Virus record (IMG/VR): IMGVR_UViG_3300026263_000341
Span: 1 to 21,470 of that record
Origin: a virus
Reading direction: 5' to 3' (one strand)
DNA: 21,470 nucleotides
This document shows positions 1,432 to 20,377 of the stretch, in pieces; within the stretch, counting starts at the first letter, position 1; every line of letters starts with the position of its first letter. The notes beneath the pieces were generated by a model. The model was not told where the DNA came from and made no database searches. It saw nothing but the letters and a program-made list of their open reading frames with translations. A program made the translations under genes and the position numbers.

Positions 1432-2661
1432 ATGAAAGTGCCTTATATTTCAGCAAGCCGATTAAAAACTGCTCAAGAATGTTCTTTAAAGTATTGTTTT
1501 CATTATGAAACTCCTACTGCTGACGCACAGGCACTAAAGGATATTGGAAATCATAGGGATAGTTCACAAGCAGGTAGGATGGGTAATAATGTCCACGATG
1601 CTTTTGAAGAATGGCGAAGACCTGACGAGAACGGAGACACACCAAAGCCCAGTTTTGGTAGGTTGATGAAACTATACAATGAAATATCCGCCAAGCGAGA
1701 AGTTGATTTATCATTCTTTGAAGACGGCAAAAAAATGCTCAAGAGATGGTTTGACCGTCGAGGAAAACACCCTGTTAGAGTGCTTTATGTCGAGATGCAA
1801 TTTGGGCAACATAATGCTCCATACATATTACAGAGAACAGGAACACCAGTTTTGGGGTTTGTTGATTTAGTCATCGAACACCCTGACGGAACAGTTGAAT
1901 TAATTGACTACAAAACACAGAGATTAGACATAACTCAAGGTGAAGCCGACCATAGCATACAAGCGGCAATTTATCTATGTGTAGCAAGAGAAATGTGGCC
2001 GGATAGACCTTTGAAATTCACCTTTGATTTGATGAGACATGGAACGGTGACTACCGTTTGGTCGGATGAAAGACTTGAGACTTTCAAGGATTGGCTTCAT
2101 GGTCAATATGAAAATATACTTTCAATAGATTCTTCCGATTGGACCAAAGTTCCGGCACAGATAGGCAAAGGTTGTCAATGGTGTAGTTATGCTGACTTAT
2201 GCCCTAAAGCACAGGACTTGATGCAAAATGGAGCATGGGATATGCTGACACCGACATTAGGTGGCGACACCGATGATTTGTTGGATGAACTTGCTACAAT
2301 AAAAGCAAGCAAAGCAATGCTTGAAAAGAGAAAGAAGGCTATTGACAATCATATCAAAACTGAAATTTTTGATTATCAAATGCCGGTGTCCGACTGTAAG
2401 TTAGATACCGATAAATGGTCGGTTGAATGGCGAGAACAAACGAGAAAGTCATATATCCCTGCCGAAGTGCAGAGGTTAGTGCCACCGGCAGTATTCGGAA
2501 CTATGGTATCGTTATCTAATGCCGCAGTTGATAGAGTGTTGCCTATTCTTCCTGATGAAGTGGCCGACGCTATTAAGAGAACTCAAATACATAAACCCCA
2601 AAGAATGTTAATTGTTAAACCAAAGGAGTCAGGAGATGAAGAAAGACAAGAAAAAGACTGA
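1432..2661 (+). CDS. Cas4/AddB-like PD-(D/E)XK exonuclease with Fe-S cysteines
   Basis: The 409-residue protein carries the RecB/Cas4 nuclease signature: an N-terminal SASRLKTAQECSLKYC segment, a VHDAFEEW helix, then D145 in GFVDLV and D159/K161 in ELIDYKTQ, the expected metal-binding D and D-x-K. Cysteines at C17, C248, C251 and C257 match the pattern of one N-terminal and three C-terminal cysteines that hold a 4Fe-4S cluster in Cas4 and AddB. The C-terminal part contains a Lys-rich helical stretch (near residues 285-315). The expected activity is 5'-end resection of DNA for recombination or replication. GGAG (1420-1423) lies 8 bases before the ATG. There is no CRISPR array nearby, so this is a replication/recombination Cas4 relative and not an adaptation protein. 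Confidence 0.8.
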   Translation: MKVPYISASRLKTAQECSLKYCFHYETPTADAQALKDIGNHRDSSQAGRMGNNVHDAFEEWRRPDENGDTPKPSFGRLMKLYNEISAKREVDLSFFEDGKKMLKRWFDRRGKHPVRVLYVEMQFGQHNAPYILQRTGTPVLGFVDLVIEHPDGTVELIDYKTQRLDITQGEADHSIQAAIYLCVAREMWPDRPLKFTFDLMRHGTVTTVWSDERLETFKDWLHGQYENILSIDSSDWTKVPAQIGKGCQWCSYADLCPKAQDLMQNGAWDMLTPTLGGDTDDLLDELATIKASKAMLEKRKKAIDNHIKTEIFDYQMPVSDCKLDTDKWSVEWREQTRKSYIPAEVQRLVPPAVFGTMVSLSNAAVDRVLPILPDEVADAIKRTQIHKPQRMLIVKPKESGDEERQEKD

Positions 2662-2980
2662 TTATGACACCGTTCCTTCTTCCAAGTATGGCACACGAAA
2701 GAAAGGCAGGTTAGGAAAATCTGATGGTCGAAATGTCAAGCGTCTTTGGAAATGTATGATAAAAGAAGGTGCAACCTTTCCCGATGGAACACCGATGACA
2801 ACAGGTGAAATTCTTACACTACCCAAGCAACCATTTGAGATGAACAGGTTATCGAATCACTTAGCCAAGAAGCCACATTTGTTTTACTGCGCCGGAACTG
2901 TAAGAGTTGCCAGTATTGATGGTCGAACAAAATATCCTCAAAAGACATGGCTTGCTCATCCTGACGCTTATGATGAATAA
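2636..2980 (+). CDS. Small basic hypothetical protein
   Basis: This 114-residue protein overlaps the end of the nuclease gene by 26 bases in another frame. The start is chosen at ATG 2636, because GGAG at 2625-2628 is 7 bases upstream; an in-frame TTG at 2612 has no such support. The N-terminus is very Lys/Arg-rich (KKDKKKTDYD, then TRKKGRLGK), as in nucleic-acid-binding tails. The rest contains short hydrophobic patches but no known motif. Co-translation with the nuclease suggests a DNA-binding accessory factor; that is inference. Confidence 0.7.
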   Translation: MKKDKKKTDYDTVPSSKYGTRKKGRLGKSDGRNVKRLWKCMIKEGATFPDGTPMTTGEILTLPKQPFEMNRLSNHLAKKPHLFYCAGTVRVASIDGRTKYPQKTWLAHPDAYDE

Positions 2981-2993
2981 TAGGCGACAGGTT

Positions 2994-3001
2994 TATATAG
3001 G
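2994..3001 (+). promoter_or_regulatory. Archaeal TATA box for the structured RNA
   Basis: TATATAGG within GTTTATATAGG. Position +21 from its last G is 3022, where no start codon exists but where the closing stem of the predicted RNA begins. The 28 bases 2991-3018 match 16188-16215, in front of another unit, at about 23 positions, including a shared ACGATAG just before the expected transcription start. Confidence 0.7.
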
Positions 3002-3021
3002 GGTTGCCCCTACGATAGAAC

Positions 3022-3300
3022 AGAGGCGACAACACGGAACACCCGATGACCAAAATCAATCCTTGAAGCAACCGGAAGCGGTATTGCCATAGTAGGGGCG
3101 TGAGGTTGTGATTGTTCCGGTGTCGCTTCTCAATCCTTTGCAGGGGGCTTTACTTGAGCCACCAAGAGGCAAGGGGGGGAGAAACGCAACACCCTTCACA
3201 GGGTAAAGGACTGTCGGATATTGACCGGTCTGTTGGAACGGGGTTAGCGACCCGTGCCTCTCATGAAGATGAGGGGGTTTCTGTCCTAAAGCCCCCTTTC
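3022..3300 (+). ncRNA. Structured non-coding RNA of unknown family
   Basis: This 280-base stretch lacks a credible gene but folds strongly. Domain I is closed by 3022-3031 with 3121-3130 (one G-U pair) and continued by CGGAACA (3035-3041) with TGTTCCG (3113-3119); inside is an ACCG-GAAG-CGGT hairpin. Domain II is closed by a perfect 11-bp stem, AGGGGGCTTTA (3142-3152) with TAAAGCCCCCT (3287-3297). Within it are AGAAAC/GTTTCT, an ACCCT-TCAC-AGGGT hairpin, an ACGGG/CCCGT hairpin, and an 8-bp hairpin near 3257-3276 with loop GAAG. The predicted 5' end coincides with the TSS expected from the TATA box, and a pyrimidine-rich tract (3297-3308) could end it. I do not recognise RNase P RNA, SRP RNA, tRNA or a C/D guide in it. 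Confidence 0.65.
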
Positions 3301-3308
3301 TATTCCTT

Positions 3309-3316
3309 AAAATAGG
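3309..3316 (+). promoter_or_regulatory. Archaeal TATA box (AAAATAGG variant)
   Basis: AAAATAGG, preceded by TT, with the last G 21 bases before ATG 3337. The same variant stands before the primase gene (13565). It lies directly after the structured RNA. The GTG at 3316 overlaps the box and is not a usable start. Confidence 0.65.
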
Positions 3317-3336
3317 TGGGCTACCCGTTAGAGGGT

Positions 3337-4146
3337 ATGCTGACACCTAACTCCAAAGTAAGTCGGACTTGTATGATACAAGTTAATGGCGGGGAGTTTG
3401 CCAATTTGCTATCAGCAGTTTGCATGGACTCGCCCCCAGTGCCAGTAAAAATACTCTTTGAAAACGAGGGTATCAGTATTGGTGGGTTAAATGTTTCAAA
3501 GACGATACAAACAATCCTGACAAGGTGGCCGGTCAGTGGCTTGAAAGTAAAAGAGCCATGTGTATTATTGACTGACCCAAAAGAATTAGGCGACATTGTA
3601 AGAGCCAAGTCGAGAGGGGAGATGATTAGAATTACAACATCGGCATCACACCCAATATCAATATCAACCAGAAACAACGGTGGTGCAGAGGTCATGCCGA
3701 CAGAGGAAGAGGATTGTCTTATCATTCCCGATAGGTGGCTCATGCCAAAAAACGAGAAAGGCGATATTCTTTTTCCAATGTTTGAGAATGAACCTGCTAC
3801 GCATTCGGCAATTGTTTCTATTCAGGAATTGAGAAAAGCAGTTCATGAGCAAATAACTGCCAAAGCCCCGTATGTGGTTATTACCTTCGATAAGAAGGGT
3901 GAAGCACGGTCAGGTCATTGGTCAGGGAAACAAATCAGGTCTTGGACTCCACTTGAGATGGAGATTCACGGAGAACCGTTCAAAGTCGCTTTCACAGAAT
4001 CATTGAAAACAATTTTAAACACATTTGGCACTACTACCACACAGGTGAAGATTAGTAAGCATGAAAAGGGGCAATTTGCCGTTTTAGAATCAATTGATGG
4101 TCACAACACAAGGGTTATAGCAACCGAAGCGATAAGAGAGGTATAA
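3337..4146 (+). CDS. Probable PCNA-like DNA sliding clamp (divergent)
   Basis: The product has 269 residues from the leaderless ATG 3337. A later ATG at 3373 begins the homologous-looking part (MIQVNGGEF) and would give 257 residues, close to the usual PCNA length of about 250. The pattern of an N-terminal helix, a strand ending in FENEGISIGGLN, and repeated amphipathic strands resembles the first clamp domain, in which a short helix is followed by an 'EDGI' turn. Later strands (YVVITFDKKGEA, TTQVKISKHEKGQFAVLE) fit the second domain. I see no exact family motif, so this is a fold-level judgement. Its place between recombination and tail genes, and the archaeal-type primase elsewhere in the window, fit a processivity clamp. 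Confidence 0.45.
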   Translation: MLTPNSKVSRTCMIQVNGGEFANLLSAVCMDSPPVPVKILFENEGISIGGLNVSKTIQTILTRWPVSGLKVKEPCVLLTDPKELGDIVRAKSRGEMIRITTSASHPISISTRNNGGAEVMPTEEEDCLIIPDRWLMPKNEKGDILFPMFENEPATHSAIVSIQELRKAVHEQITAKAPYVVITFDKKGEARSGHWSGKQIRSWTPLEMEIHGEPFKVAFTESLKTILNTFGTTTTQVKISKHEKGQFAVLESIDGHNTRVIATEAIREV

Positions 4147-5381: not shown

Positions 5382-7664
5382 ATGGTATCAACAGATGCGG
5401 AAGTTAATGTAAGGGCAAACACAACACAAGCAAGAAGGTCACTAAACGCTCTTTCACAGGCTTTCTATATTGCAGGTAATAGTGCATCACGATTAGGAAC
5501 AGTCACCAGAGCGTCTTTGATGGGTATTGCAGTTGGAGGGGCGGCGTTTGCAGGTGTCAAAATTGGCCAATTAGCAATTCAAGCAACCAAAGATTTTATT
5601 GCATTTAACGACACTTTAGCACGAACAGGTGCTATTCTCGGAGCAAATAAAAGTGATTTACAAGATTTAGAAGGTGAAATTAGAAGAATCGGTATGACAA
5701 CCAGATTTACTGCCGAGCAAGCGGGCGAAGCGGCAAACAAACTTGCTATTGCAGGTGTTGGTGCTGATGAAATGATTGATGACAGGGTATTAGAAAAACT
5801 TGTTAAATTCGCTATTGCAGGTGGAGTTGATATTCAAACTGCCACTGATATTGGAATAGCGGGTGTGAAAGCATTTGGAATGGAAATGTCAGAATTAGAT
5901 TCAGTGTCCGATGTATTAACAAGAACATTTACCCGTTCAAATGTAAGTATCATATCTTTGGGTGAAGGTCTTAAGTTCGTAGCCCCAGTAGCATATGCCG
6001 CCGGTATAAGTATAGAAGAAACGGCGGCAGCAATCGGTGCTTTAGGTAATGCAGGTTTGAGAGGAACTATTGCCGGAACAGGTTTGAGAATGGCGATTAA
6101 TAAATTGTTGAAGCCAACATTTGATGCTACAAGGGCTATGGATGACTTGGGAATGAATGTTGTTAATTTGACACCGGCAGGTCAAACTGCGAAGAATACT
6201 TTGAGAACATTGACTGTCGAGTTAGATAGGACTACCCTTCAAGCCTCCGCATTAAAGCGAGAAGTGTCTGATTTAGACGATGCTATGAGTGATTTATCTA
6301 TTCAACAACAAAGAAATTCATTGGCAGTAGCACAGATAAGACAACGGGCTTCAAGAGCGAACAGAGATTTGACAGAACAAGAGATTCAACAAATTAAAAA
6401 ATTGGAAGAGTCAAGTGAAGATTTACAGATAAAAGAGCAAGAACTTTCCATTGAAAGAACTATTCAAGGAAAGAAACTATCGAAGTCAATAGAGAAAGAG
6501 AAAGAATTGAAAAATACATCAACCGATTTAATCAGAACCGTTGAACAACAAACAAAAGGTGTTGTTTCATTCGGAGAAGTGTTAGACCAATTGGCTGAAA
6601 GCGGGGCTACGACAACACAAATCTTAGAAATTTTTGGTGTGAGGGGTGGAACTGCCATTGCATCTTTAGTGAGCCAAAGGTCTTCATTCCATGAATTGGT
6701 TCAATTGAATGAAGATGCGGCGGGGGCAACAGATGACTACACGGACTCGCTTCAAAGGTCAGTTGAAGAGGGCGGTTCGGCTATGGAACATTTGTTGGTG
6801 GTCATGTCTAAAATTAAAGAAGGTATGATAACAATTGGTGAACCAATAGCAAAACTCTTAGTGGATATGGGAGAACTATTCGGAGATGATTTACAACAAG
6901 CACTTGTTGATTTATCACCACACTTACAGGCATTGGCTCAGGACATAGCATTTTTTGGTGCAATGGCCTTACCATTAATTATTGACGCTATGCCCGATGT
7001 AATTGAATTGATGAGAGCATTAACACCAATAATAACAGTTCTTGCTATGGCATTTAGAATCCTTATGGCTTATATTGCACCATTTGCTCAAGTTATAAAC
7101 GGTATATTTAGAACTATAAGGGGGATTATTGAAGCAGTTATGAATATAAAAGAGGGTAAGTGGTCGGATGCCGCCGCATCTTTGGTTGATGGATTTAAAG
7201 AGGGTGGAACTGATATTCTCAAAGGTGGTTTAGGTATTGGAATTGGAATGGCGGGTGGAAACATTGCCAAAGGTCTTAGCGGGGCTACGAGAGGGGGTGC
7301 ATCCACATTTGGCGGGGTTTTGGCTCAAGGAAGCAAAGGAAGTTATTATTCAGGTGCAGGGTCAGCAAACGCAATGCTACCGGAGTTTCACATGGGTGGT
7401 ATTATCAAAAATTTTACTGCAATGACCGCAGGTGAAAGAGGACCGGAAGCAATAATACCTTTAGGAGGTAGTAGTAAAGACACTATGAATAGGAATAGAG
7501 TTATGGGCGAAGCCGGTCTAAGCGGAAGCGGGGGCGGTAATGTGTCTATTCAAAATATGAATGTTTCAACCAACATTTCTAAGCATGAATTAAAAGAAAT
7601 GGTTAAAACTGCCTTTTCACAGGTAATAAACGAGAGCAAACGCAGAGGGGGGCGTGGTTTCTAA
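5382..7664 (+). CDS. Tail tape measure protein (TP901 family)
   Basis: The protein has 760 residues. Residues about 60-250 carry the TP901 tape measure core, with the typical FNDTLARTGAILGA, MTTRFTAEQAGEAANKLAIAG and GALGNAGLRGTIAGTGLRMA segments. Residues about 283-380 form a long charged coiled coil. Residues about 515-575 are strongly hydrophobic (ALPLIIDAMPDVIELM, then ITVLAMAFRILMAYIAPFA), as expected for a protein that may enter the host envelope. The C-terminus has the common HMGGI...GERGPEAIIPLG motif. Such proteins set tail length at roughly 1.5 angstrom per residue, implying a tail of about 110 nm. The stop overlaps the next start (TAATG), so it is coupled to the tail-tip gene. Confidence 0.92.
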   Translation: MVSTDAEVNVRANTTQARRSLNALSQAFYIAGNSASRLGTVTRASLMGIAVGGAAFAGVKIGQLAIQATKDFIAFNDTLARTGAILGANKSDLQDLEGEIRRIGMTTRFTAEQAGEAANKLAIAGVGADEMIDDRVLEKLVKFAIAGGVDIQTATDIGIAGVKAFGMEMSELDSVSDVLTRTFTRSNVSIISLGEGLKFVAPVAYAAGISIEETAAAIGALGNAGLRGTIAGTGLRMAINKLLKPTFDATRAMDDLGMNVVNLTPAGQTAKNTLRTLTVELDRTTLQASALKREVSDLDDAMSDLSIQQQRNSLAVAQIRQRASRANRDLTEQEIQQIKKLEESSEDLQIKEQELSIERTIQGKKLSKSIEKEKELKNTSTDLIRTVEQQTKGVVSFGEVLDQLAESGATTTQILEIFGVRGGTAIASLVSQRSSFHELVQLNEDAAGATDDYTDSLQRSVEEGGSAMEHLLVVMSKIKEGMITIGEPIAKLLVDMGELFGDDLQQALVDLSPHLQALAQDIAFFGAMALPLIIDAMPDVIELMRALTPIITVLAMAFRILMAYIAPFAQVINGIFRTIRGIIEAVMNIKEGKWSDAAASLVDGFKEGGTDILKGGLGIGIGMAGGNIAKGLSGATRGGASTFGGVLAQGSKGSYYSGAGSANAMLPEFHMGGIIKNFTAMTAGERGPEAIIPLGGSSKDTMNRNRVMGEAGLSGSGGGNVSIQNMNVSTNISKHELKEMVKTAFSQVINESKRRGGRGF

Positions 7665-14753: not shown

Positions 14754-15541
14754 GAATAAAGAGAATGGACTTGATTAAGGATGACCCCGCAAAGGTGACT
14801 GACCTATTAGAGAAAGGCACTTTGGGGAATAAATTAGGCTTACTTAGAGCCATGAGTGAAGATAATGTGATGCGTGGGGTTGTTGGAGAAAGTATTTTGT
14901 TAGAAATGTTGAGCCGACATAGAAAGATAGACCACAGAGAACACCCATTGATGGTTGCATATTTCAGCCAGTTGGGATTTGAAGTAGCACATCTAAAAAC
15001 TGGTGAAGGTGACTTGACGGGAATGAAAGTCAGCGTTGAAAGAAAGGAAGATGATTTTATGGATAGCCTATTCGATGACAGGCGACTACGGCAATTGGGG
15101 GCTATGCGAGAAGAAGCGGAGTATTCATACCTAATTGTCACTAAGTCATACAATGAAATCAAGGAAGAAGTGATACACAGGGGAGTTAGTGAACAAGTCC
15201 TGACGGGTTTCATAGCCAGTCTATGTGCAGTTGGCTACCCACCTATTTTCATTGGTGATAAATACGATGCATCTATCATAGTTCGCAAAATTATGGATAA
15301 GATTGATGACGACCACGCCAGACTGTATGTTCCACGCCCTAAGTCACCTAAGCCACAGGAATACAGGAATGCTATTGTTGAAGCCCTACCGAAGATTGGA
15401 AGGAAATTGAGAAGGATTATAATTAGTCACTACCCTTCTTTGAAAGAATTATCCGATGCAAGCGTTGAGGACTTACAAAAGATAGACGGAATTGGAGAAA
15501 AAACTGCTGAAAGAATTTACGACATATTCAATGCGAAGTGA
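14750..15541 (+). CDS. ERCC4/XPF-type structure-specific endonuclease with HhH
   Basis: The 263-residue protein has an ERCC4 nuclease domain: GEGDLTGMKVSVERKEDDF followed by MDSLFDDRRLRQL, at about residues 85-117, contains the GD ... ERK-x3-D catalytic signature of XPF, Mus81 and archaeal Hef. A tandem helix-hairpin-helix region covers about residues 214-263 (LPKIGRKLRRIIISHYPS, then LQKIDGIGEKTAERIY). The helicase part found in Hef is absent, so it matches the short XPF form of some archaea. These enzymes cut 3' flaps, forks and branched DNA. Here it likely processes replication or recombination intermediates together with the primase, with which it shares an ATGA junction. Confidence 0.88.
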   Translation: MRIKRMDLIKDDPAKVTDLLEKGTLGNKLGLLRAMSEDNVMRGVVGESILLEMLSRHRKIDHREHPLMVAYFSQLGFEVAHLKTGEGDLTGMKVSVERKEDDFMDSLFDDRRLRQLGAMREEAEYSYLIVTKSYNEIKEEVIHRGVSEQVLTGFIASLCAVGYPPIFIGDKYDASIIVRKIMDKIDDDHARLYVPRPKSPKPQEYRNAIVEALPKIGRKLRRIIISHYPSLKELSDASVEDLQKIDGIGEKTAERIYDIFNAK

Positions 15542-15545
15542 AATC

Positions 15546-16187
15546 ATGTTTCAAGTTAGAAGAATAGAATACCAAGACACTAAGGATTTTATTCTTAACA
15601 AACATTATGCTCAAAGAATGCCAATGATAACTTATGCGTTTGGTCTTTTTAGAGATAGTGAAATGGTAGGAGTTTGCACTTTTGGAAAACCAGTTAGTAA
15701 TAACCTATGTTATGGAATATGCGGTCACGAATACTCCCACATGGTCTATGAATTAAACAGACTGATAGTTAATGATGGACTACCTAAAAACACATTGAGC
15801 AGGTTTGTTTCACGGTGTTTGAAGCGACTTAAGAAAGAGGACTTGTTAATCGTTTCTTACGCTGACGATGGAAAAGGACACAAGGGCTACATATACCAAG
15901 CGACAAATTGGATATACACAGGCAAGACTAAACAGAGGACAGAGAAATACACAGGGAAGAATAAGCATTCAAGGCATTATGACAATTCAATGAATCACCT
16001 TAGAAAGGTTAGAACTTCAAAGCATAGGTATGTATTTTGCACAGGGAAGAGTAGGAAGAAATTATTGAAGGCCATGAACTACACAGTCGAACCATATCCA
16101 AAAGGAGAAAACACCAGATACAAATTAGGTAATAGGATAAAGGACAAAATACTCAATAAAGATGATAATACACACTTTTATGAATAA
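15546..16187 (+). CDS. Mom-like DNA adenine-modification acyltransferase
   Basis: 213 residues from ATG 15546, four bases after the nuclease stop (an upstream in-frame ATG at 15531 is possible; neither has a strong ribosome-binding site). The sequence shows the Mom family layout: an N-terminal HYAQRMPMITYAFGLF, then VGVCTFGKP, ELNRLIVNDGLPKNTLSRFV near residues 69-88, and SYADDGKGHKGYIYQATNWI near 103-122, ending in YTG. Mom of phage Mu is a GNAT-like enzyme that converts adenine in DNA to a methylcarbamoyl form and blocks host restriction. The basic C-terminal half could bind DNA. A family member with another substrate is possible. It is the last gene of the primase operon. Confidence 0.8.
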   Translation: MFQVRRIEYQDTKDFILNKHYAQRMPMITYAFGLFRDSEMVGVCTFGKPVSNNLCYGICGHEYSHMVYELNRLIVNDGLPKNTLSRFVSRCLKRLKKEDLLIVSYADDGKGHKGYIYQATNWIYTGKTKQRTEKYTGKNKHSRHYDNSMNHLRKVRTSKHRYVFCTGKSRKKLLKAMNYTVEPYPKGENTRYKLGNRIKDKILNKDDNTHFYE

Positions 16188-18495: not shown

Positions 18496-20377
18496 TGCGA
18501 ACTCCGGCAATCCTAATAATGCTCCTGACCAATTGAGGTCACGGTTGAATCAAGCAGGGGTTAAAACCCATGCCAAAGATACATATATTGAATTGGTTAG
18601 AAAGGCCAAGATAGCAGGTGTCTTTGAAGAAATACCAACAACCACTACCACTACCACTTTGACAGGCGCAATAGGGGCAATAGGGGCAACAGGGGCAAAA
18701 GGTTCTGATGGGGTCGGTGTTCCGGCAGGTGGCTCAACAAATCAAGTATTGGCAAAAATAAACGCACAGGACTACAATACTCAATGGGTCAATCAACAAG
18801 GGGGTAGTGGTGGTAGTGGAACAGTCACAAGTATAGGACTTTCTTCAACAGATGGAAGCATAACCTTGACAGGCACTAATCCAGTGACCCTAAGTGGAAC
18901 TATTGATTTGTCGCTATCAACAACACCAATGGTTTCTTTTATTCTTGCAGGTGATACAGGCACTAATCAAACTATTGCTGATGGTAATACTGCTAAGGTC
19001 GAAGGAGGCACAGGCATAAACACAGTTGGAACTGCCGGTGATAAAGTAGTTATTAACTGCGACCTTGAAGGAACAGAATTGAAATCAACAGGTGAAGTGG
19101 GAGGTTCTAAATTTTTAAGAGAAGATGGCGACGGCACTTGCTCTTGGCAAACAGTAAGTGGTGGAACTTCTTATACTGACGCTATGGCTATCTCCGCAGT
19201 TGAAGGAGAAGCAACACTTGATTTAGCAGGTGATGTGACAATGGACACGGGGAAATCTATTGTTATTGATGAAACCGCTACTGGCTCAATAACTGCCCCT
19301 GCTACTGCAAAAATAAAATTACAAGCGTCTGTCAGTGGTGCAAATGAGCCTTTATTGCATATAGGGAGTAATACAGGTTATGTTAAAATAGGTTCTCAAA
19401 ACGCAAGTTTTGCTCATGTATTAACAGATAAAAGTTATTTTTACTTTAACAAACCAATACAATTTGATGGTGGAGATGGTGTCTATGCTTACAACGGTGA
19501 TTTTTGGGTTAAGACTGATGATGCTACGACAGGGCAACCAGAAAGAATAACTATCAAAGGCGCACAGGATGCTACGGCAATTGGTATCGCTAACACTAAT
19601 CCCCAAACTGAATTAGATGTGACAGGAACAATCCGTCAATCGGCTACAACAAGTGCAGTAGTTCATGCTGACGCTAACGGTGATTTGGGCGCATTGACAA
19701 TTGGAACGGGGCTATCTTTGGCAGGTTCAACCCTAAGTGCGACAGGTGGTGGTGGTGGAGGAACAGATATTCGCCAATTGTTTAAGCATGACCAAAACCC
19801 AACCACGCATCATTTTTCTCCATTTAGATTATTACAGACTGGCGACACAATTGAGTTAGGTGTTTCAAGTGGTGCAACAATTAATGAGAATGTTGATGTA
19901 TTTACTTGTGAACATACACAAACAGGGTCAGGTCAAATTTTTGAAATTAGTCATGTAGGAACGGTGGCAGAGAACTGTGGAAGGGAATTTATTTTTAATG
20001 GTCAAATTGGAGAGGATGATAGGAGAGGAAATCTCACCGGTGGAACTGATTCAGTGGTATATTATTTTGATAACACTAATAACTTCGTTATTCCACATAT
20101 TTTTGTCAGTAATATGGCTTGGTTGGAGAGTGGTAGTGGTGGACTCGGACCAATGCCCGTTGAGTTTAATGGGGTAATGATATTGTCCTCAAACGACTAT
20201 ACGGCAATGAGTAATAAAGTCAGATTCATAGACGCAGGGGAGCATAGTGCAGTTATTGAGGATATTGACCCAAACAATCCAGTCACTTGTCGAGTCTTTT
20301 TGGTAATTGATACTGACTTAACATGGGATAGGGGAATGCCGGTGGGGAATAATTCAAGAATCATCAAATACCCATGA
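18479..20377 (+). CDS. Tail fibre protein with short collagen-like segment
   Basis: 632 residues. The N-terminal 45 residues form a helical region (DQLRSRLNQAGVKTHAKDTY, likely the tail-attachment part). Then come a poly-threonine stretch (residues about 53-60), a collagen-like GAIGAIGATGAKG, and the frequent phage-fibre phrase 'GSTNQVLAKINAQDYNTQW'. Gly/Thr/Ser-rich repeats (SLSTTPMVSFILAGDTGTNQ) follow, then a beta-rich shaft (LDVTGTIRQSATTSAVVHAD and similar). A distinct C-terminal domain from about residue 430 (RQLFKHDQNPTTHHFSPFRL) carries strands and is the likely receptor-binding head. Start: ATG 18479 directly abuts GGGGAGG, whereas the GTG at 18488 has GGAGG 9 bases upstream, so the product may begin M-A-N-A-N-S. 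Confidence 0.78.
   Translation: MRQVANANSGNPNNAPDQLRSRLNQAGVKTHAKDTYIELVRKAKIAGVFEEIPTTTTTTTLTGAIGAIGATGAKGSDGVGVPAGGSTNQVLAKINAQDYNTQWVNQQGGSGGSGTVTSIGLSSTDGSITLTGTNPVTLSGTIDLSLSTTPMVSFILAGDTGTNQTIADGNTAKVEGGTGINTVGTAGDKVVINCDLEGTELKSTGEVGGSKFLREDGDGTCSWQTVSGGTSYTDAMAISAVEGEATLDLAGDVTMDTGKSIVIDETATGSITAPATAKIKLQASVSGANEPLLHIGSNTGYVKIGSQNASFAHVLTDKSYFYFNKPIQFDGGDGVYAYNGDFWVKTDDATTGQPERITIKGAQDATAIGIANTNPQTELDVTGTIRQSATTSAVVHADANGDLGALTIGTGLSLAGSTLSATGGGGGGTDIRQLFKHDQNPTTHHFSPFRLLQTGDTIELGVSSGATINENVDVFTCEHTQTGSGQIFEISHVGTVAENCGREFIFNGQIGEDDRRGNLTGGTDSVVYYFDNTNNFVIPHIFVSNMAWLESGSGGLGPMPVEFNGVMILSSNDYTAMSNKVRFIDAGEHSAVIEDIDPNNPVTCRVFLVIDTDLTWDRGMPVGNNSRIIKYP
18636..18701 (+). repeat. Tandem codon repeats (Thr tract, Gly-X-Y) in tail fibre gene
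   Basis: ACCACTACC-type triplet repeats encode seven consecutive threonines and are followed by about three copies of a 9-base unit (ATAGGGGCA-like) that encodes GAI-GAI-GAT-GAK. Such low-complexity segments are flexible or triple-helical hinges in tail fibres and tend to change length by slippage. Confidence 0.7.

Follow-up and report, generated by a model that had tools for sequence, protein, structure and literature searches.

The GOLLD and ROOL RNAs found in phages and prophages are virus-encoded, non-coding, intricately folded and of unknown function (PMC12286853), and the same is true of the RNA described here, which lies in an IMG/VR virus record analysed in its entirety (21,470 bases, hereafter the window). 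GOLLD combines a conserved 3' part with a less conserved 5' part, a design also found in this RNA, where the 3' domains are 88-93% identical and the 5' domains of two relatives, L006 and L007, are unrelated to that of the window. In contrast to GOLLD and ROOL, it is only about 280 nt long, follows an archaeal-type TATA promoter, matches no Rfam covariance model, and occupies an accessory locus of small genes rather than a position by tRNA genes, which is common but not universal for those RNAs. The Racr RNA anti-CRISPRs (PMC10651486) are likewise virus-encoded non-coding RNAs, and the RNA studied here may share with them an anti-defence role exercised from an accessory locus; Racrs, however, are solitary mimics of a CRISPR repeat, whereas this RNA is much larger and has multiple helices. 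The pRNA of phi29 is also a small viral structured RNA with multi-helix junctions, but the present RNA is dispensable in close relatives and has no Rfam match, and no terminase gene was recognised in the window. A compact scaffold with a possible pseudoknot is shared with the omega RNAs of TnpB and IscB; unlike in those systems, no such nuclease gene was found in the six records searched, and the variable part of this RNA is a folded 5' domain, not a 3' guide. To our knowledge, no family of structured trans-acting RNAs is known from viruses of marine archaea, and searches of the available literature for such RNAs found none described.

Promoter, predicted transcript start and probable host

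In the leaderless genes of this virus group, the ATG is most often located 28 nt past the first T of the TATATAG box, and the window's three other gene-associated TATATAG promoters (149, 472 and 16191) have an ATG at exactly +28 (177, 500 and 16219). The same spacing from the box of the RNA gene (2994+28) gives 3022, where there is no ATG. A second class of genes in the relatives carries the leader ACGATAGAACAGAGGCGA, with an ATG approximately +41 to +44 from the box (e.g. in L047, L049 and L050); this leader is present in the RNA gene too, but without an ATG at +41 to +44. The first ATG within the RNA, at 3046, opens merely 6 codons. Because the geometry of box and leader matches that of protein genes, yet the ATG is missing at either position, transcription is inferred to begin at A3022, where the closing stem P0 also begins. 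This inference rests on promoter geometry, without transcript data.

The virus is likely to infect ocean archaea, with its host untested. Archaeal-type promoters, a PCNA-fold clamp, a primase-like gene and an ERCC4/HHH nuclease are consistent with the marine archaeal virus supposed at the outset, without proving it, and from them we infer a magrovirus of Poseidoniales, no host genome having been compared. Almost all magroviruses are reported to have an ERCC4-type nuclease among their genes (PMC10160649); Pfam's own ERCC4 model scores below its cut-off on the nuclease found here. No host link was confirmed through relatives of the nuclease in genome contigs, leaving no handle on the host.

Table 1. 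Coordinates of the RNA, its structural elements and the neighbouring features in the window
Feature	Position	Strand	Remarks
Conserved small gene bordering the accessory locus	2632..2980	+	Function unknown; no Pfam or PHROGs match
Promoter box TATATAGG of the RNA gene	2994..3001	+	Kept in L003, L006 and L007
Structured non-coding RNA	3022..3300	+	Start A3022 predicted; end probably ~3298-3306
5' domain with closing stem P0 (3022-3031/3121-3130)	3022..3130	+	Exchangeable between viruses
Constant 3' domain (scaffold)	3129..3298	+	55 pairs; 88-93% identical overall, core 95-99%
Helix H1 (3135-3141/3169-3175)	3135..3175	+	Contains an alternative hairpin, H1a (3143-3150/3156-3163)
Long-range pairing	3143-3150 with 3289-3296	+	96.9% of cells paired; G-C to A-U in L006
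P2	3176-3185/3277-3286	+	Three covarying pairs; encloses three arms
Three arms within P2	3187-3235, 3238-3255, 3257-3276	+	
Arm with variable apical hairpin	3187-3235	+	Apical hairpin 3191-3204 (two covarying pairs) and hairpin 3208-3231
Promoter-like element AAAATAGG	3309..3316	+	Exactly 28 nt ahead of the clamp ATG
Sliding-clamp (PCNA-fold) gene	3337..4146	+	Start most likely ATG 3337; AlphaFold pLDDT 88; Foldseek E 3.8e-12 to PCNA

Fold, constant scaffold and exchangeable 5' domain

The 279-nt segment 3022-3300 has a minimum free energy of -112.3 kcal/mol (z -3.5), and none of 200 dinucleotide shuffles was as stable. Among 154 segments of the same size on the plus strand of the window, it has the lowest minimum free energy and the second-lowest z. 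The lowest z (-5.4) belongs to 5978-6256 (+), inside the tape-measure gene, and is unexplained. The homologous RNAs of relatives gave z scores of -4.3 (L006), -3.6 (L007) and -2.8 (L003). The minimum-energy fold contains the stems 3022-3031/3121-3130 (with one G-U) and 3035-3041/3113-3119, and AGGGGGCTTTA (3142-3152) is perfectly complementary to TAAAGCCCCCT (3287-3297) over 11 bp.

A first-pass annotation, made without database searches, had taken a box at 2994-3001 to predict transcription from 3022, with no start codon at the expected place, unlike at the other such promoters of the window. The coordinates and the missing start codon held, and the start is supported by geometry. It had also proposed the long stem from 3022 with its extension, which held, and a perfect 11-bp stem closing a second domain; here the complementarity held, with its persistence in the relatives limited to 6-8 of the 11 pairs. 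Of the tests it suggested, comparison with shuffled sequence put the fold beyond chance, and compensatory changes in the relatives were found in both the 3' and the 5' domains.

More than 35 related contigs were collected by searches that used three genes as queries: the clamp, the nuclease and the small gene upstream of the RNA. Among these, one RNA was identical to that of the window (L002/L030/L036) and three were distinct (L003/L038, L006/L037 and L007/L040); the box TATATAGG is conserved in all three. In this comparison, 98.6% of cells conform to the 55-pair structure of the 3' domain, six pairs of which have changed on both sides. Half of these six belong to P2, two to the apical hairpin and the last to the long-range pairing. 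Shuffles lead one to expect 1.7 such pairs and never reached six (0 of 500), and slid controls gave 0-1. As this set comprises four distinct sequences from closely related viruses, few events carry the statistic. The loop of the apical hairpin is 25 nt longer in L006. Identity between the viruses is 95-99% in the core of the 3' domain, compared with 60-91% at the four-fold degenerate sites of the two flanking genes (60-78% when the window is one of the pair, 71-91% when the other three RNA-bearing viruses are compared with one another). These comparisons show that selection acts on the RNA and not on a protein.

The strand 3143-3150 can pair either within H1a or with the 3' tail. In the window the local hairpin is mismatched, at -8.8 kcal/mol versus -17.2 kcal/mol for the long-range form, and in the relatives the two are about equal in energy. 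If H1 forms at the same time, the long-range pairing would be a pseudoknot; this is possible, and which form exists has not been shown.

The 5' domain has a different history. Those of the window and L003 differ at 3 of 109 bases, two of the changes making up a compensatory G-C to C-G swap in an apical hairpin and the remaining one converting a G-C pair of P0 to G-U. The 5' domains of L006 (75 nt) and L007 (108 nt) resemble that of the window no more than shuffled sequence does, and are unrelated to each other, yet the upstream genes of these two viruses are 98.6% identical. Sequence comparison thus shows that the 5' domain has been swapped twice for unrelated sequence, and that every version closes on the predicted transcript start, L007 being weak in this respect. 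When the pairing of each 5' strand with the end of its own domain was set against 2000 shuffles, those that paired as well numbered 0 for the window, 1 for L003, 0 for L006 and 26 for L007, whose closing stem is the weakest case.

Partners in trans were also considered. A search for antisense matches between the 5' domains and viral genes returned stretches of 13-15 nt, roughly as expected by chance; in one case, 15 nt of the L006 5' domain match 19796-19810 of the window (E 0.01). Pairing of the 3' strand of P0 with the common mRNA leader is disfavoured: the L007 strand reaches -5.1 kcal/mol with the common leader versus -8.9 kcal/mol with its own, and this loss of most of the pairing with the shared leader is the reason for preferring a cis role.

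Distribution of the RNA and turnover of its locus

No further copy of the RNA was found by a covariance-model search of the related records examined. Scanning four core patterns through IMG/VR returned the same four contigs and chance, coding-like matches, and an exact-pattern scan of genome contigs returned no copy; strongly diverged copies would escape both scans. Distant blastn against phage and plasmid records gave no match either.

The RNA locus lies between the conserved small gene, which ends at 2980, and the clamp gene, and its content varies by virus. It may hold the RNA alone, the RNA with a 40-aa ORF (L003), or that ORF alone (L004, L005). Elsewhere it holds ORFs of 81-125 aa that are unrecognised and mostly unrelated to one another (L012, L026, L041 and L044; related in L009/L047/L050), two or three small ORFs (L008, L077, L078), or nothing (L013, L014). 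The RNA is absent from L004, L005 and L039, which are otherwise nearly identical to L038; L038 (with the RNA) and L039 (without) share 96-99% amino-acid identity in the clamp, the small gene, the nuclease and the ATPase. Near-identical viruses without the RNA have a small ORF there under the same promoter type. These comparisons show the RNA to be a cassette that the viruses can do without, in an accessory locus that is hypervariable and where small genes turn over rapidly. No gene convincingly exclusive to the RNA-bearing viruses was found.

The small ORFs of this locus (2981-3336 and its counterparts in relatives) are candidate counter-defence proteins. Elsewhere in the window, 15492-16187 (+) encodes a DNA modification protein of the Mom family (PF25680, E 2.4e-41), whose genes are known to act against restriction.

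Proposed role, alternatives and further RNA-like units

Sequence comparison supports the region being a self-contained viral RNA gene and an independent unit, its expression being untested. Because the locus turns over, the scaffold is constant and the 5' domain is quickly replaced, we infer a trans-acting, host-facing accessory RNA. On this inference of function, the RNA would belong to a new viral family that combines an unchanging scaffold with an exchangeable 5' domain, serving as an accessory factor during infection, probably in host takeover or counter-defence, a proposal that we consider as likely to be wrong as right. The scaffold, formed by P2 with its three arms and a 3' tail tying back to H1, would provide a stable body or a protein-binding platform, and the fast-replaced 5' domain would be the part that contacts a changing host target, e.g. 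a defence or regulatory factor. The 5'-terminal stem may sequester the ribosome-binding leader supplied by the promoter cassette, so that the transcript stays untranslated. The accessory location suggests a host-directed role without proving it, and no target or protein partner has been identified. An RNA that replaces small proteins in such a hypervariable locus, and whose scaffold stays fixed while one domain is exchanged more quickly than the flanking genes diverge, argues for a trans-acting RNA on which selection is driven by the host, and annotation of archaeal virus genomes by ORFs only would overlook real genes of this kind.

The best surviving alternative, itself unlikely, is an ornate RNA like GOLLD or ROOL, which would self-assemble into an RNA-only particle with the conserved 3' domain as its frame. 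The conserved 3' and variable 5' regions, as described for GOLLD (PMC12286853), speak for it, as do the pseudoknot potential and the viral setting. Against it, the RNA measures ~280 nt compared with 800 or more in many GOLLD members, Rfam gives no match, and there is no tRNA nearby in the window.

Much less support remains for a guide RNA or scaffold of a TnpB/IscB-like or CRISPR-related nuclease. A constant scaffold with a changing domain and a compact fold with a possible pseudoknot would suit such a role, but the variable part is a folded 5' hairpin domain and the 3' end is paired, not free as in a guide. The TnpB-type domain (PF07282) was absent from the six records searched, whereas six control genomes were positive; the records are fragments, and a partner may lie outside them.

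A packaging or replication RNA like phi29 pRNA is equally hard to sustain. This RNA is small, viral and structured, with junctions and a possible pseudoknot; however, L004 and L039 lack it though otherwise nearly identical to L038, and it is therefore not essential. It also matches none of Rfam's families, and is absent from all other related records searched. Packaging had been one of the roles first guessed for it, and this or any other essential role is disfavoured by the near-identical viruses without the RNA; a host-directed accessory role fits better.

The RNA is also very unlikely to be a cis-acting leader controlling the clamp gene. It ends ~35 nt ahead of the clamp ATG, and the two competing pairings of its 3' tail could act as a switch. 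However, the clamp has a promoter-like element of its own, placed 28 nt ahead of the ATG, and relatives show an A+T-rich element and then GGTGGG at this distance whether or not they carry the RNA. RNA and clamp are separated in L003 by an entire small gene that has a TATATAG box of its own, and the clamp is kept in viruses that lack the RNA. Judged from sequence, the clamp gene has its own promoter, so the RNA is not its leader. A riboswitch- or thermometer-type 5' UTR of a regulated gene was likewise rejected, an inference from sequence only, in view of the separate promoter-like element and the intervening gene in L003. The clamp itself, which is virus-specific, had no match in Pfam, PHROGs or a PDB sequence search, its PCNA fold being detected only by structure.

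A hidden small protein gene, such as the 67-codon frame 3112-3315, which is open in the window and has similar frames crossing part of L040 and L037, is all but excluded, as that frame has no ATG, indels break the frames (1, 3 and 1 nt in L003, 25 nt in L006), the few substitutions are spread over codon positions (2, 4, 6) without a coding pattern, and changes in the region fall in compensating pairs.

No known RNA family was recognised. Rfam returned nothing on 2900-3450, even at E up to 5, and RNase P, SRP, tRNA, tmRNA and C/D guides gave no match with Rfam models and ARAGORN, the latter finding no tRNA in the window. The first-pass annotation had seen no signature of RNase P RNA, SRP RNA, tRNA or C/D guides, which held, and its overall claim, that a promoter drives a structured RNA outside the recognised families, finds support in the start geometry, the covariation, a conserved core with frame-breaking indels and the negative Rfam result. 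It would have been refuted by a lack of covariation together with a conserved reading frame, or by an Infernal hit to a known family; covariation is present, no frame is conserved and there is no Infernal hit.

A bolder form of the accessory-RNA reading, which we consider less likely than not, is that these viruses, whose hosts are probably Poseidoniales, possess several dedicated structured RNAs and employ them as accessory genes that can be interchanged. Each RNA would have a TATA promoter and a helix at its first transcribed base, and the RNA at 3022 would additionally join a constant scaffold to a swappable domain. If this were so, they would be the RNA equivalents of the small accessory proteins that relatives have at the same spot, and virus-host conflict in archaea would have a new mode.

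Further RNA-like units were observed in the relatives. Because their folding scores are weaker, they remain leads rather than results; should they prove real, which is possible, this virus group would possess several uncatalogued RNAs, the one at 3022 among them. Rfam at its thresholds recognised nothing in nine of these records, and permissive Rfam searches of two other RNA loci gave chance matches only, far under the family thresholds. In L041 (463) and L044 (5344), TATATAG boxes on the plus strand have no ORF at +28 or +42 and are followed by approximately 200-300 nt of conserved GC-rich sequence. Units on the plus strand of L040 (2734-3022) and L037 (61 to ~400) have a TATATAG promoter and no ORF at their start. 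A hairpin, GTAGGGG...CCCCCTGC, begins exactly at their predicted first base, the 5' 27 nt are common to both (96%) and the interior differs; their folding is weaker, with z scores of -1.8 and -2.0. On the minus strand, L042, L045 (1947-1700) and L050 (4747-4560) carry a unit that starts GTTGGGGCAACAACCCCGACCGAAGCACC at promoter +28, with a 5' end (GTTGGGGCAACAACCCCGAC CGAAG) comparable to that of the L040 and L037 units. The folds of the L042 and L045 units have 70 pairs in common, 3 of them changed on both sides and none broken. Behind a second TATATAG-like box stands a module of the form ...CATACCGAGAATCCC...AGGGC(C/A)AAGTTCTCGCTCCCTG..., also on the minus strand, in two tandem copies in L042, L045 and L052 and in one copy in L050. 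The outer stems of this tandem module compensate, pairing as GAGCACA/TGTGCTC, GAGGCGCA/TGCGCCTC and GACGCA/TGCGTC.
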